Positions 58,272 to 62,718 of a DNA stretch of 63,214 nt are shown in pieces. Position 1 is the first letter of the stretch, and every line of letters starts with the position of its first letter. The notes beneath the pieces are model-generated. The model saw nothing but the letters and a program-made list of their open reading frames with translations, was not told where the DNA came from and searched no databases. Origin of the DNA: Kushneria avicenniae (GTDB lineage: Bacteria > Pseudomonadota > Gammaproteobacteria > Pseudomonadales > Halomonadaceae); contig NZ_FOLY01000010.1 in assembly GCF_900112585.1 (NCBI RefSeq), positions 1 to 63,214 of the forward strand, read 5' to 3'. The translations under genes and the position numbers were made by a program.

Positions 58272-58907
58272 ATGGCACTGGCGGTCTGGTTGACCTACCT
58301 CGGCGTGATTGCCGCGCTGATCTTATTTCCCGGGCCGAGTGCTCTGCTCTGCATGAGCCACGGGCTGCGCTATGGCCGCCGGCGCGCACTGGCGACGGTA
58401 GTGGGCGGCGCACTGGCCGCACTGGTGCTGATGACGCTGTCGTCCCTGGGGCTGGGGGCGATTCTGGCCACTTCGGAAACGGCCTTTATCGTGCTGAAGG
58501 CCGTGGGGGCGGCCTATCTGATCTACCTTGGCGTGCAGGCGTGGCGAACCCCTGCCGAGCCGATGGCCACACCGGCGGCAACCCGGAAGGTCATGGCAGG
58601 TATTCATGCCACTCGGCGACTGTTCATCAAGGGCCTTACCATAGGCCTCAGCAACCCGAAGGATCTGCTGTTTTTCGCTGCACTGTTCCCCAACTTCATC
58701 GACCCGGGTCAACCACAGTGGTCGCAGTTCGTCATACTGGCACTGACATGGCTTGTGGTGGATCTGGCCGCGATGACCACCTACGTTTGCGTTGGCTCAA
58801 CGGTCAGCCGGTGGTTCGGCACGCGGCGACGCGTAAAGCTCTTTAACCGCGCTTCCGGGAGCCTGTTCGTGGCAGCCGGCGGCGCGCTGGCCTCATCACA
58901 TCGATAG
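58272..58907 (+). CDS. LysE/RhtB family amino-acid exporter
   Basis: A 211-residue membrane exporter with about six helices. LTYLGVIAALILFPGPSALL near residues 7-26 carries the family FPGP motif, and GLTIGLSNPKDLLFFAALFP near 122-141 is the second signature. The family exports homoserine, threonine, lysine or related compounds. It ends 22 bases before the preferred start of the racemase homologue, so the two are one transcript, hinting at a shared amino-acid substrate. Confidence 0.92.
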   Translation: MALAVWLTYLGVIAALILFPGPSALLCMSHGLRYGRRRALATVVGGALAALVLMTLSSLGLGAILATSETAFIVLKAVGAAYLIYLGVQAWRTPAEPMATPAATRKVMAGIHATRRLFIKGLTIGLSNPKDLLFFAALFPNFIDPGQPQWSQFVILALTWLVVDLAAMTTYVCVGSTVSRWFGTRRRVKLFNRASGSLFVAAGGALASSHR

Positions 58908-58917
58908 GTTGCGACGG

Positions 58918-58947
58918 GAATCTCGTCATATGGAATCTCGTCACATG
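58918..58947 (+). repeat. 15-nt tandem duplication spanning alternative starts
   Basis: GAATCTCGTCATATG followed by GAATCTCGTCACATG (one mismatch). Each unit brings a purine-rich stretch and an in-frame ATG, giving the racemase homologue two start codons (58930 and 58945). Confidence 0.8.
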
Positions 58948-59751
58948 GAGTCACAGGGCCTTCATCGACCGATCGCCGTGTTTGATGCCGGCATCGGTAG
59001 CTATGCCATCGTGGCGGAAATACAGCGGCGCCTGCCCCATCAGGACGTGCTCTATTTCGCGGATCGTGCCAGTTTTCCCTACGGCACCAAGACGCCGGAG
59101 ACGCTGGCCCGGATCATGACGCAGACATTGCGCCTGCTGGAAACCTTTGAGCCCTCGGCGATCGTCATGGCCTCCAACGCGCCCTCGATCACCGTGCTGG
59201 AAGAGGTACGCCCCATGACCCGGGTGCCGATCTTCGGTGTCTTTCCACCGTTGCAGGAGGCGCTGGCGAGCTCGACAAGCCACACGGTCGGGATCATGGG
59301 CGTCGAGTCCCTGATAGAGAGCGAGATGCTGCGCGCATTCGTGGCCCGCCACGATCTCAAGGGCGCCCATGTCGAACGGATCAATGCTTCAAGCATGGTC
59401 GAACTGGTCGAGAGCGGCAGGTTCCTGTTTGACCTGCAGGAGACCCAGCAAAGGGTCAACGATTTTACAGCCGCCCTCTTCCAGCGCGCGCCCGATATCG
59501 ACGTTCTCACGCTTTCAAGCACTCACCTGCCCTGGCTCAAGGCGTTTTTCGAACGCGCACGGCCTCAGTGTCGCTTCCTGGACCCCGCCGAAAGCGTCGT
59601 CGCCGGTCTGGGAAACGGCACGCCAGGCCACGGCAGGATTCGAACGCTGGTGACAGAAGACGCGCGCTATTCGGTCAGCGATTTTCGCCGCATGCTGGAT
59701 CGCCTTGGCGTGGCCCTGACGCTTGAGGTCGTGGAAGCCCCCTCCCCGTGA
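58930..59751 (+). CDS. glutamate/aspartate racemase family protein lacking both catalytic cysteines
   Basis: A 273-residue MurI-like protein. The N-terminus IAVFDAGIGSYAIVAEIQRR keeps the Asp of the family; YFADRASFPYGTKTPE matches the substrate loop. At the first catalytic site the protein reads VMASNAPSI where MurI has A-C-N-T (Ser codon at 59173-59175). At the second it reads LSSTHLPWL where MurI has G-C-T-H (Ser codon at 59518-59520). Both active-site cysteines are thus serine while the surrounding Asn, Thr and His remain. It is unlikely to be a standard racemase. TTG 58909 and ATG 58945 are alternative starts. It sits directly after a RhtB exporter. Confidence 0.85.
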   Translation: MESRHMESQGLHRPIAVFDAGIGSYAIVAEIQRRLPHQDVLYFADRASFPYGTKTPETLARIMTQTLRLLETFEPSAIVMASNAPSITVLEEVRPMTRVPIFGVFPPLQEALASSTSHTVGIMGVESLIESEMLRAFVARHDLKGAHVERINASSMVELVESGRFLFDLQETQQRVNDFTAALFQRAPDIDVLTLSSTHLPWLKAFFERARPQCRFLDPAESVVAGLGNGTPGHGRIRTLVTEDARYSVSDFRRMLDRLGVALTLEVVEAPSP

Positions 59752-59893: not shown

Positions 59894-60787
59894 ATGCCGC
59901 TGATGGATCGACGCCGTCTGCTTTGCGCTGCCTCACTACTGCCGCTGGCCACACTAACGCTGCCTGCCCTGGCCAGAACCGCTGCCACACCCGACCCAAA
60001 AGCCGTTCAGCGCAAGCTTCAGGCGCTGGAAGAGCAGCACGGCGGCCGGCTGGGGGTGGCCCTCATGAATGTGGGCACAGGCGCGGTGGTCAGCCATCGC
60101 GGCGACGAACGCTTTCTGTTCAACAGCACGGGCAAGGTCTTCATGGCGGCGGCCGTGCTGGCGCGGGTCGACAGCGGCGAGGAGTCGCTGGATCGGCGGC
60201 TCGAGATCAAGGCGTCGGACATTGGCGAATGGGCGCCCGTCACCGAGCCACACGTCGGAGGCCCCGGCATGACGCTGGCCGAACTCTGCCAGGCGGCCAT
60301 GGCCTGGAGTGACAACACCGCCGCCAACAAGCTGATCGAGAGCGTCGGCGGCCCGGAGCCTATCACCGCGTACCTGCGCCGCATTGGCGACGACACCACA
60401 CGGCTCGACCGCTGGGAACCCGAACTCAACACGCACGATCATGAGGGTGACGAGCGCGACACCACCACCCCGCTCGCGATGATGCAGACGCTTCGAACCC
60501 TGCTATTGGGCGATGCCCTTTCCCCCTCCTCGCGCCATCAGCTGGCGGCCTGGATGATCGAAGGCAAAACTGGCGATGCCCGTCTGCGCGCGGGCATGCC
60601 CCCCGGCTGGCTGATCGGTGAGAAGACCGGCACCAATAGCGTCGGCAACGCCAATGATGTCGGCATTGCCTGGCCGGCCGATCGCGGTGCGGTAATTGCC
60701 GTGGCCTACACCTGGCTGCCAAAGGCCAGCAAGACACAGCGCGACGAGGTCATCGCGGAGATCGGCCGGCTGGCCGCCAGCGTGTAG
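59894..60787 (+). CDS. class A beta-lactamase (Tat-exported)
   Basis: A 297-residue serine beta-lactamase. All class A elements are present: STGK (Ser78-Lys81), SDN (139-141), EPELN (the general-base Glu175 to Asn179) and KTG (244-246). The signal DRRRLLCAASLLPLATLTLP has an RRR start resembling Tat signals, followed by AxA. AAGGA lies 8 bases before the ATG. It appears to be a chromosomal, environment-type enzyme: no integron, transposon or LysR regulator is next to it. The spectrum cannot be predicted by eye. Confidence 0.95.
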   Translation: MPLMDRRRLLCAASLLPLATLTLPALARTAATPDPKAVQRKLQALEEQHGGRLGVALMNVGTGAVVSHRGDERFLFNSTGKVFMAAAVLARVDSGEESLDRRLEIKASDIGEWAPVTEPHVGGPGMTLAELCQAAMAWSDNTAANKLIESVGGPEPITAYLRRIGDDTTRLDRWEPELNTHDHEGDERDTTTPLAMMQTLRTLLLGDALSPSSRHQLAAWMIEGKTGDARLRAGMPPGWLIGEKTGTNSVGNANDVGIAWPADRGAVIAVAYTWLPKASKTQRDEVIAEIGRLAASV

Positions 60788-60917: not shown

Positions 60918-62120
60918 ATGAAGCCTGTATTCCTGGTGTGTCGCGGCCTTGTGGGCACGTGTGTGCTAACGATGTTGATTGGACTCAACCTGCGGCCCTC
61001 GATGGCAGCCATCGGCCCTGTCGTGGAATCCATTCGTCATGATGTCCCCCTGAGCTTCAGGCAGATTTCCCTGCTCACGACCCTGCCGGTGATCGCCATG
61101 GGGCTGGGCTGCTTTGCCAGTGGCGCACTTGTCAGGCGGCTCGGGATGAGTGGCGTGATCACTCTGGCACTGACCACCATTGCGGCCTCTGATGCCCTGC
61201 ACTGGCTGGGGCTGGGCTTTGCCGGACTATAGATCGCGGCAATGGGCGCCGGTATCGGTATTGCCTTTATTCAGGCCATCCTGCCCGGTTTTATCAAACA
61301 CGTTGCCAGAGACAACACGTCTCTGGTCATGGGCATATATGTCGCCGCCATCATGGCGGGCGCGGCACTCTCTGCCTCCATGGTTCCCTTTATCAGCCGT
61401 TTACTGGGCTGGCAGACCGGACTGGCCTCATGGAGTCTGCTCGCGCTCATGGCTCTGGTGGTCTGGCACTACCGCGATCGAACGCTTGCGACGCCATTGC
61501 ATGATCAAGACCGGCAGCTCTCCTTTCGCCAGATGGCAACGGTGCCGAGGTTCTGGACTCTGGCCGCTTTCTTCGGCCTGGGCACCGCCGGATACACCTG
61601 TCTGCTCGCATGGCTGCCACCCACCTTCGTGACGCTGGGGTGGTCGGAATTTCGGGCCGGATTCATGTTGAGCTGGATGAGCCTCATTGAGGTCATGGCC
61701 GCGCTCGCATTCCCCGCCCTGTCTCAGCACATGAATGACCGACGCCCCATTCTGGTCCTCGTGCTTCTGCTGTCATTCACGGGCTTTGTCCTGTTGAGTC
61801 AATGGCCTGTCACCACCGCCTGGCTATCCACGGCCCTGCTCGGCCTGGGGATCGGCGGCCTTTTTCCCATGAGCCTACTGGTCACCATGGATCATTTCGA
61901 TGATTCGATCGCGGCAGGTCAATTGACCGCCCGGGTACAGGGCATCGGATACCTGATGGCCTCGATATCACCGCTCGTGGCGGGCATCATGAAAGACACG
62001 CTCGGCGGGTTTGAGCAGGCATGGCTACTATTGGCCATCGTATTTCTGGGCCTGCTCTTTTTGAGCCTCACATTCAATCACGCTGAAATTACCCGACCCA
62101 TGCAGACGGCATCCCTTTAA
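60918..62120 (+). pseudogene. MFS transporter of CynX/NimT type, interrupted by in-frame TAG
   Basis: A 400-codon frame stays open on both sides of a single TAG at 61230-61232. The first part (104 codons) begins LIGLNLRPSMAAIGPVVESI, the CynX/NimT start. The second continues IAAMGAGIGIAFIQAILPGF and runs to a natural end with PLVAGIMKDTLGG. No frameshift is needed: removing the TAG restores a normal twelve-helix protein of standard length. A CAG-to-TAG change is the simplest cause. It is a probable recent pseudogene, unless TAG is read through. Confidence 0.88.
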
Positions 62121-62215
62121 CTGCCAGTGCCCCGGCAGGGCCAATGTTCGTCACCCGGCCAGGGCTGGCATGGGGTCAATCGACAGGAACGATAAAACGC
62201 CAGGAGGCTGGTCCC

Positions 62216-62718
62216 ATGGAAGACTCCCTTAACAACGAGGAAGGCAAGGCGCTGCTTTTCCGCTACGCCACCAGAGAAGATTTGCCTGCCATCGTGGCGC
62301 TGCTGGCGGACGATGAAAAAGGAAAAACGCGTGAGCAGTATTGCGATCCCCTGCCTTCGGCTTACAGCGATGCCTTTGACGCCATGGAAAGCCAGAGCAC
62401 CGACTGCATTGCCCAATCGGTATCTTCTGTCCTGTGACGGGAACGACATTGTCGGTGGCTTACAGCTCACCATGATTGCCGGCCTGTCACGGCGGGGCCA
62501 GTTGAGAGCGCAGATTGAAGGCGTCAGGATTGCTTCACATGCCAGAGGCCAGGGGATTGATTGGCGAAAGACTCATCCAGCGGGCCATTTCCATTGCAAA
62601 AGAGCATGGCGCCGCCCTGCTCCAGTTCACGACAGATAAAACACGCCCGGATACCCACCGCTTCTACGAACGGCTGGGATTCATCGCGAGTCATGAGGGC
62701 ATGAAGATGGCGCTATAA
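62216..62718 (+). pseudogene. GNAT family N-acetyltransferase with two frameshifts
   Basis: Three reading frames in turn encode one acetyltransferase. First comes LLFRYATREDLPAIVALLAD from 62216. After a shift near 62410-62440, CDGNDIVGGLQLTMIAGLSR and the acetyl-CoA site IEGVRIASHARGQG follow. After a second shift near 62556, IGERLIQRAISIAKEHGAAL and FYERLGFIASHEGMKM follow. The second shift coincides with a GATTGATT duplication; deleting one GATT restores the frame. Each shift is of the +1 type. The gene appears inactivated, though assembly errors should be excluded. Confidence 0.85.

Follow-up and report, generated by a model that had tools for sequence, protein, structure and literature searches.

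A conserved MurI-like protein family with serine in place of both catalytic cysteines: a candidate repurposed subfamily

Glutamate racemase (MurI) is a cell-wall enzyme. In the DNA of Kushneria avicenniae analysed here (63,214 nucleotides; "the window" refers to this whole stretch), a MurI-like open reading frame carries serine at the positions of both catalytic cysteines. We therefore asked whether this gene is a broken copy of murI or whether it belongs to a family that has been put to another use, and if so, to which.

The gene, its active-site residues and its predicted fold

The following features of the window, all on the + strand, are referred to below. Residues are numbered from the ATG at 58945, the start that matches the starts of the relatives in the alignment, and proteins with the serine pair are called Ser/Ser proteins.

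58272..58907, + strand: RhtB/LysE-type amino-acid exporter gene (PF01810, 126.3 bits, cut-off 25.6)
58918..58947, + strand: imperfect tandem duplication of 15 bases across the start region, read from the sequence
58930..59751, + strand: intact Ser/Ser MurI-like open reading frame, from the ORF list, Pfam, NCBIfam, PDB sequences, alignment, and fold
58984..58989, + strand: Asp14, retained, and Ala15, which is Ser in MurI (D-S-G to D-A-G), from the alignment (Ala in 30/30 Ser/Ser rows, Ser in 27/27 MurI rows)
59065..59067, + strand: Arg41, beside the P-Y-G loop, present in 30/30 Ser/Ser rows
59173..59175, + strand: Ser77 (TCC) at the first catalytic Cys position, motif A-S-N-A-P-S-I, from the alignment
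59179..59184, + strand: Ala79-Pro80, which is Thr-Ala in MurI (A-C-N-T-A to A-S-N-A-P), from the alignment (30/30 Ser/Ser rows vs. 27/27 MurI rows)
59518..59520, + strand: Ser192 (AGC) at the second catalytic Cys position, motif T-L-S-S-T-H-L-P-W, from the alignment
59521..59526, + strand: Thr193-His194, as in MurI (30/30 Ser/Ser rows and 27/27 MurI rows)

The stop codon of the Ser/Ser gene lies at 59749-59751, and in-frame ATGs are found at 58930 and 58945, giving proteins of 273 and 268 amino acids, respectively. The 15-base duplication accounts for the second ATG and for five extra residues when compared to the relatives. An initial annotation of this DNA had placed serine at the codons of both catalytic cysteines (59173-59175 and 59518-59520), and the alignment confirmed this. 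It had also described the flanking Asn, Thr, and His residues and the N-terminal Asp as kept. This holds for Asp14, Asn78, Thr193, and His194 (each in 30/30 Ser/Ser rows), and Glu156 is kept likewise. The first motif has changed from ACNTA to ASNAP, however, so the threonine reported there is in fact alanine; alanine has likewise taken the place of Ser in the N-terminal D-S-G.

The protein matched PF01177 (Asp/Glu/hydantoin racemase superfamily) at 54 bits, above the Pfam cut-off of 31, and no other Pfam family matched with an E-value of 1 or less. Against the NCBIfam glutamate racemase equivalog TIGR00067 it scored 109.3 bits, below the cut-off of 146.65, and all Ser/Ser proteins listed scored under the same cut-off. 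Scores for aspartate racemase (TIGR00035, 20.2 vs. a cut-off of 93.1) and for the CuyB model (18.7 vs. 190) were also below threshold; at cut-off, no NCBIfam model covers the Ser/Ser clade. A phmmer search against PDB sequences (E up to 0.001) returned 23 distinct matches, all of them named glutamate racemase. AlphaFold2, given the window protein and seven relatives as input, yielded a model with pLDDT 77.4 and pTM 0.77; two of the five models were near that level, and three were poor (35-39). The first 48 of the best 50 Foldseek rows were glutamate racemases, followed by aspartate-racemase-like structures at much weaker E-values. TM-scores (query-normalised) against MurI structures reached 0.81, at moderate model confidence. 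The window protein is accordingly predicted, from this model and the searches together, to have the MurI fold.

Conservation of the serine pair and occurrence of the family

We compared 30 distinct full-length Ser/Ser rows (the window protein, L034-L042, L046, L053-L066, and L074-L078) with 27 MurI rows. Duplicate loci of the same genomes (L004-L006, L044, L045, and L047-L052) and partial or broken copies (L007 and L067-L073) were left out. The full-length relatives are 39-82 % identical to the window protein. Both serines were found in 30/30 rows and both cysteines in 27/27 aligned MurIs; the serine codons were always TCN at site 1 and always AGY at site 2 (30/30). Ten columns were fixed differently in the two groups, with the Ser/Ser residue in 30/30 rows and the MurI residue in 25-27 of 27. 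Given as Ser/Ser vs. MurI, these are 15 A/S, 19 S/G, 20 Y/L, 77 S/C, 79 A/T, 80 P/A, 102 P/A, 160 F/gap, 192 S/C, and 219 V/A, and seven of them (15, 19, 20, 77, 79, 80, and 192) lie within the three active-site motifs. D14, N78, T193, H194, E156, P45, and G47 are among the residues common to both groups. Three further residues, Arg41, Trp197, and Glu238, never vary within the Ser/Ser family, which does not hold for MurI. Column 41 is Asn in 17/27 MurIs, with no Arg among the residue types listed there, and Arg41, beside the P-Y-G loop, is a possible new ligand contact that hints at a second anionic group on the compound bound.

In an unrooted tree with 28 MurIs, the 30 Ser/Ser rows formed one clade with 100/100 support. 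The Fusobacterium row is one of the long branches that the tree flags, and its position within the clade is therefore unsure. We defined the subfamily by the serine pair together with DAG, SNAPS, LSSTHLPW, and membership of the single clade, and the window protein has all of these. A simple Nei-Gojobori count gave dN/dS values of 0.066-0.214 in 15/15 pairs, which were hand-picked and mostly close, five of them with dS about 1 or more; judged from these ratios, the family is clearly under purifying selection. In a draw of 398 genomes the scores dropped from 331 to 114 bits, and no match scored between these values. The next 24 matches in this draw were Cys/Cys (24/24), and no Cys/Ser intermediates were found among them.

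The initial annotation had favoured a new activity or a binding role over decay, and had named close Cys/Cys homologues as the sign of decay confined to this strain. No such homologues were found among the aligned rows or in the 398-genome draw; the nearest Cys/Cys proteins were ordinary MurIs at 24-34 % local identity. The shared serine pair (30/30) and the signal of purifying selection likewise support its view. A decaying murI duplicate in the window strain would agree with the truncated or interrupted copies seen in five relatives, but the window frame is intact, and the double serine in one clade at the dN/dS values above argues against it. Strain-specific decay was rejected on these grounds and we consider it hardly credible. 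Since the double serine is kept across the whole family, these proteins probably do a different job and are not broken copies.

Relatives were found by several routes. A pattern scan of genome contigs gave seven at 78-82 % identity (five Salinicola, one Modicisalibacter, and one Halomonas), and the plasmid collection held one in Phyllobacterium zundukense (59 %) and one in Fusobacterium vincentii (40 %). The Fusobacterium record (NZ_CP084075.1, L042 and L099, 2.1 Mb) is filed as a plasmid and looks like a mislabelled chromosome, judged by its size and by its gene content, which includes murI and pyr-like genes as well as one resembling a ribosomal-protein gene. Two pattern scans of viral contigs revealed no relative of the Ser/Ser protein. 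At family level (E up to 1e-40), 27/275 genomes matched, 22 with full-length and five with partial or broken copies, and a search with the window protein found one further fragment in genome G033. Nine further congeneric genomes gave no Ser/Ser match. The phylum draw gave a match in 3/398 genomes. In the order of G298, 6/297 genomes matched, all within genus g207, which looks alphaproteobacterial from a reading of its genes. One public record labels a Ser/Ser member "Asp/Glu racemase". Among the five genomes with partial or broken copies, G454 and G674 retain both Ser motifs on separate pieces, G010 retains the first motif only, and G602 the second only; in G642 the second site is unlike the family and reads as after a frame change. 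Given the sporadic occurrence of the gene and these five broken copies, its function is dispensable.

A separate true murI, the existence of which the initial annotation had listed as a point to confirm, was located by a PF01177 search of the window's own genome (L002, canonical, with ACNTAS and GCTH). Further matches in this search were L001, of hydantoin/allantoin type by eye, and L003, a weak match inside another gene. The window's own gene was listed when the window protein or TIGR00067 served as query and not by the PF01177 genome search, so such a search can miss members. We searched the 35 genomes or records that carry the Ser/Ser gene or part of it with TIGR00067; 28 of them (27 halomonads and the Fusobacterium record) had a match above cut-off that was separate from the Ser/Ser gene, five of the 27 halomonad MurIs passing only with neighbouring frame pieces added. 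These 28 MurIs comprised 23 with Cys/Cys in one piece, four in two pieces that hold one Cys apiece, and one showing its first Cys only. The remaining seven were six g207 genomes and one plasmid. MurI above cut-off was found in 0/29 g207 genomes; at E up to 0.001, TIGR00067 matched in 6/29, each time the Ser/Ser protein, and gave no match in 23/29. This genus is apparently MurI-less and presumably makes D-glutamate another way. There is an annotation hazard here, as a MurI search run at a permissive threshold would assign a glutamate racemase to each of the six g207 genomes.

These six genomes, in which the Ser/Ser protein is the only TIGR00067 match, would be in keeping with the idea that it supplies D-glutamate in place of MurI, at least where MurI is absent. 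Most members of g207, however, lack both MurI and the Ser/Ser protein; the latter is thus not needed for their D-glutamate, which in most of the genus must have another source. Every halomonad genome that has the gene or part of it (27/27) also has a canonical MurI, as does the Fusobacterium record, and MurL orthologues are reported in Alphaproteobacteria (PMC5808125). Replacement of MurI was set aside on the 23/29 g207 genomes without any TIGR00067 match, and we regard it as very improbable.

The RhtB-type exporter and other neighbours

The initial annotation had put the gene directly after an RhtB-type exporter. This is correct: 22 bases separate the exporter stop from the ATG at 58930, and the two genes are probably co-transcribed. 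The window exporter scored below the equivalog cut-offs of the named RhtB/LysE members (best NF007812, 166.8 vs. 209), so its substrate is not given by a model. An RhtB gene was found upstream on the same strand and within about 170 bases at 10/25 full-length loci tested (window included; the g207 rows L074-L078 were outside this test), and all ten are halomonads. The upstream genes of the relatives are about 75-81 % identical to the window's exporter, and at one of the ten loci (L035) rhtB is split over two frames. RhtB also precedes two of the broken Ser/Ser copies (G010 and G602). It was not adjacent at L037, L054, L062, and L063, in any of the eight g11 rows of the same family, or in Phyllobacterium and Fusobacterium, and ORF clustering found none among the neighbours of five g207 loci (L092-L096, i.e. 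four of the rows L074-L078 and the locus of L046). Weaker LysE-type paralogues within about 1 kb of L079 and L088 were given no weight because such paralogues are common in these genomes.

Across the 275 family genomes, 16 carried an RhtB gene at least 75 % identical to that of the window (rounded, E up to 1e-70). The Ser/Ser gene or a remnant was present in 14 of these 16 vs. 13 of the 259 others (Fisher p about 2e-14, which is overstated since relatedness is ignored). Both genes were present on different contigs in G587 and G592, the exporter was present alone in G596 and G600, and G012 had the Ser/Ser gene without the exporter. This partial linkage makes the exporter a clade-level partner and not a defining one. 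The initial annotation had raised the prospect of a conserved double-serine clade with RhtB neighbours; the clade was borne out (30/30 rows, 100/100 support), whereas the RhtB neighbour did not extend beyond part of the halomonad branch. A universal RhtB operon was rejected, as the other clades have other neighbours. In Phyllobacterium this is a PLP-enzyme gene. Named by eye, the others are, in g11, an MscS-like channel gene (8/8 loci viewed) and a hydrolase-like gene (6/8); in g207, acs-like and fmt-like genes (5/5 loci viewed) and rmuC-like and def-like genes (4/5 each); and, in Fusobacterium, convergent rplS-like and pyr-like genes. None of the neighbours viewed recurred as a partner in every clade.

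Directly downstream of the Ser/Ser gene lies a class A beta-lactamase-like gene (59894-60787, + strand, PF13354, 158 bits). Five congeners have 75-78 % matches to it, and blastn of the 1.5-kb flanks of these matches revealed no rhtB or Ser/Ser similarity. Its presence in the five congeners marks it as a gene of the genus and not as part of a cassette. A recent insertion of the exporter and Ser/Ser genes beside it was considered as a possible history of the pair. In the congener G006 (L195, about 297-1072), which gave no Ser/Ser match, a truncated rhtB (its first 128 residues) comes right after the C-terminal remnant of a beta-lactamase-like gene; this is what is left of a related gene order within the genus. 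Further downstream in the window, an MFS-transporter-like frame (by eye; 60918-62120, + strand) is divided by an in-frame TAG at 61230-61232 into two same-frame ORFs, and is probably a pseudogene or a sequencing error. At 62144-62639 (+ strand), two overlapping ORFs in different frames together resemble one frame-changed acetyltransferase-like gene (by eye).

Possible functions and comparison with known systems

We hypothesize that the Ser/Ser proteins are a repurposed, non-racemising subfamily derived from MurI with a new reaction, and we assign this statement as a whole a probability of about 0.5. That they form a conserved, functional subfamily other than MurI is in itself very likely. If they do, a new enzymatic reaction is mildly favoured, ligand binding or regulation would be a less likely role, and genuine Ser/Ser racemisation an unlikely one. 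The active site seems to have been rewritten as a unit, with Cys to Ser twice, DSG to DAG, CNTA to SNAP, and the invariant Arg41, Trp197, and Glu238. Racemisation by the two-thiol mechanism would thereby be lost, while the polar core of Asp14, Asn78, Thr193, His194, and Glu156 would be kept and used for a different reaction. The new chemistry would most likely be one-base, elimination-type (dehydratase or lyase) or hydrolytic, and its substrate a small compound, other than glutamate, that resembles an amino or hydroxy acid. The RhtB-type exporter in front of the gene in part of the halomonads suggests that the substrate or product is exported or detoxified.

Glutamate racemase retains some elimination activity when its cysteines are mutated to serine. 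In MurI the Ser of DSG and the Thr of CNT presumably contact glutamate. For OpaE, a member of the superfamily, epimerase activity is 4.8 % in C90S and at most 0.3 % in both C199S and C90S/C199S (PMC12661438). With the double Cys-to-Ser mutant nearly dead, a natural Ser/Ser protein is not likely to racemise well by a two-base mechanism. Among members of the proline racemase family, those with Cys-Cys are racemases or epimerases, the Cys-Thr type is a dehydratase, and several with Ser-Thr carry a dehydratase annotation (PMC4364671). By analogy, the OpaE data, the proline racemase precedent, and the presumed roles of the MurI residues favour a one-base, elimination, or hydrolytic enzyme, and leave a binding protein as the main rival.

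Such a protein would use the MurI pocket to sense a small acid without performing chemistry, for example to tune the exporter or MurI. The double replacement removes both bases, the pocket residues Asp14, Asn78, Thr193, His194, and Glu156 are invariant, and some of the halomonads have the exporter upstream; the polar residues that are kept suit a binding protein just as well as an enzyme. However, a hydroxyl at exactly both positions in 30/30 rows across phyla is unneeded for pure binding, the search that matched PF01177 alone showed no output domain, and the neighbours viewed hold no constant partner. We take a binding role to be possible at something over one chance in four, and an enzymatic role for the subfamily to be more probable than binding alone. 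Racemisation or epimerisation by unusual means, either through serine alkoxides or with Asp14 and His194 serving as its two bases, would be compatible with the invariance of these two residues in both the Ser/Ser and MurI groups and with the predicted retention of the MurI fold. Against this, two presumed glutamate contacts, the Ser of DSG and the Thr of CNT, are lost, and cysteine-to-serine changes are damaging in OpaE, as described above, and in HisR, of another fold, where C67S and C209S activities are greatly reduced (PMC11602996). We judge an unusual racemase unlikely. A wider reading combines new Ser/Ser-Asp/His chemistry, for instance that of a dehydratase, lyase, or hydrolase acting on an amino-acid-like compound that the cell exports, with horizontal spread among Gammaproteobacteria, Alphaproteobacteria, and Fusobacteriota and an RhtB cassette in some halomonads; as a joint claim it is tentative and falls somewhat short of even odds.

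The fold and superfamily are known, and what stands out is a distinct clade without the cysteine pair. Among the matches listed in our literature search, which covered mostly open-access papers, there was no description of a double-serine MurI family. A long-lived clade that lacks the cysteine pair but keeps much of the polar pocket would be a natural experiment in the conversion of a racemase into something else.

The closest known system to our proposed repurposed enzyme is MurI itself (PDB 1zuw, 2oho, 2dwu, and others), with the same fold, length, Asp/Asn/Thr/His/Glu core, and P-Y-G loop. Identities to the window protein are 24-34 % in local matches and 18-28 % in the first 48 Foldseek rows. 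MurI differs by its cysteine pair, DSG, and CNTA, where the Ser/Ser family has the serine pair, DAG, and SNAP along with the invariant Arg41, Trp197, and Glu238. Aspartate, hydantoin/allantoin, and cysteate racemases, arylmalonate decarboxylase, and OpaE have PF01177 in common with the window protein. Arylmalonate decarboxylase holds a deprotonated cysteine in a "thiolate hole", whereas the Ser/Ser protein has no cysteine at either position. The trans-3-hydroxyproline dehydratases of the proline racemase family (Cys-Thr and Ser-Thr members; PMC4364671) offer a precedent for how such a protein might work, since replacement of the cysteine pair there goes with dehydration. They belong to a different family, we claim no sequence kinship, and the precedent covers Ser-Thr and not Ser-Ser.
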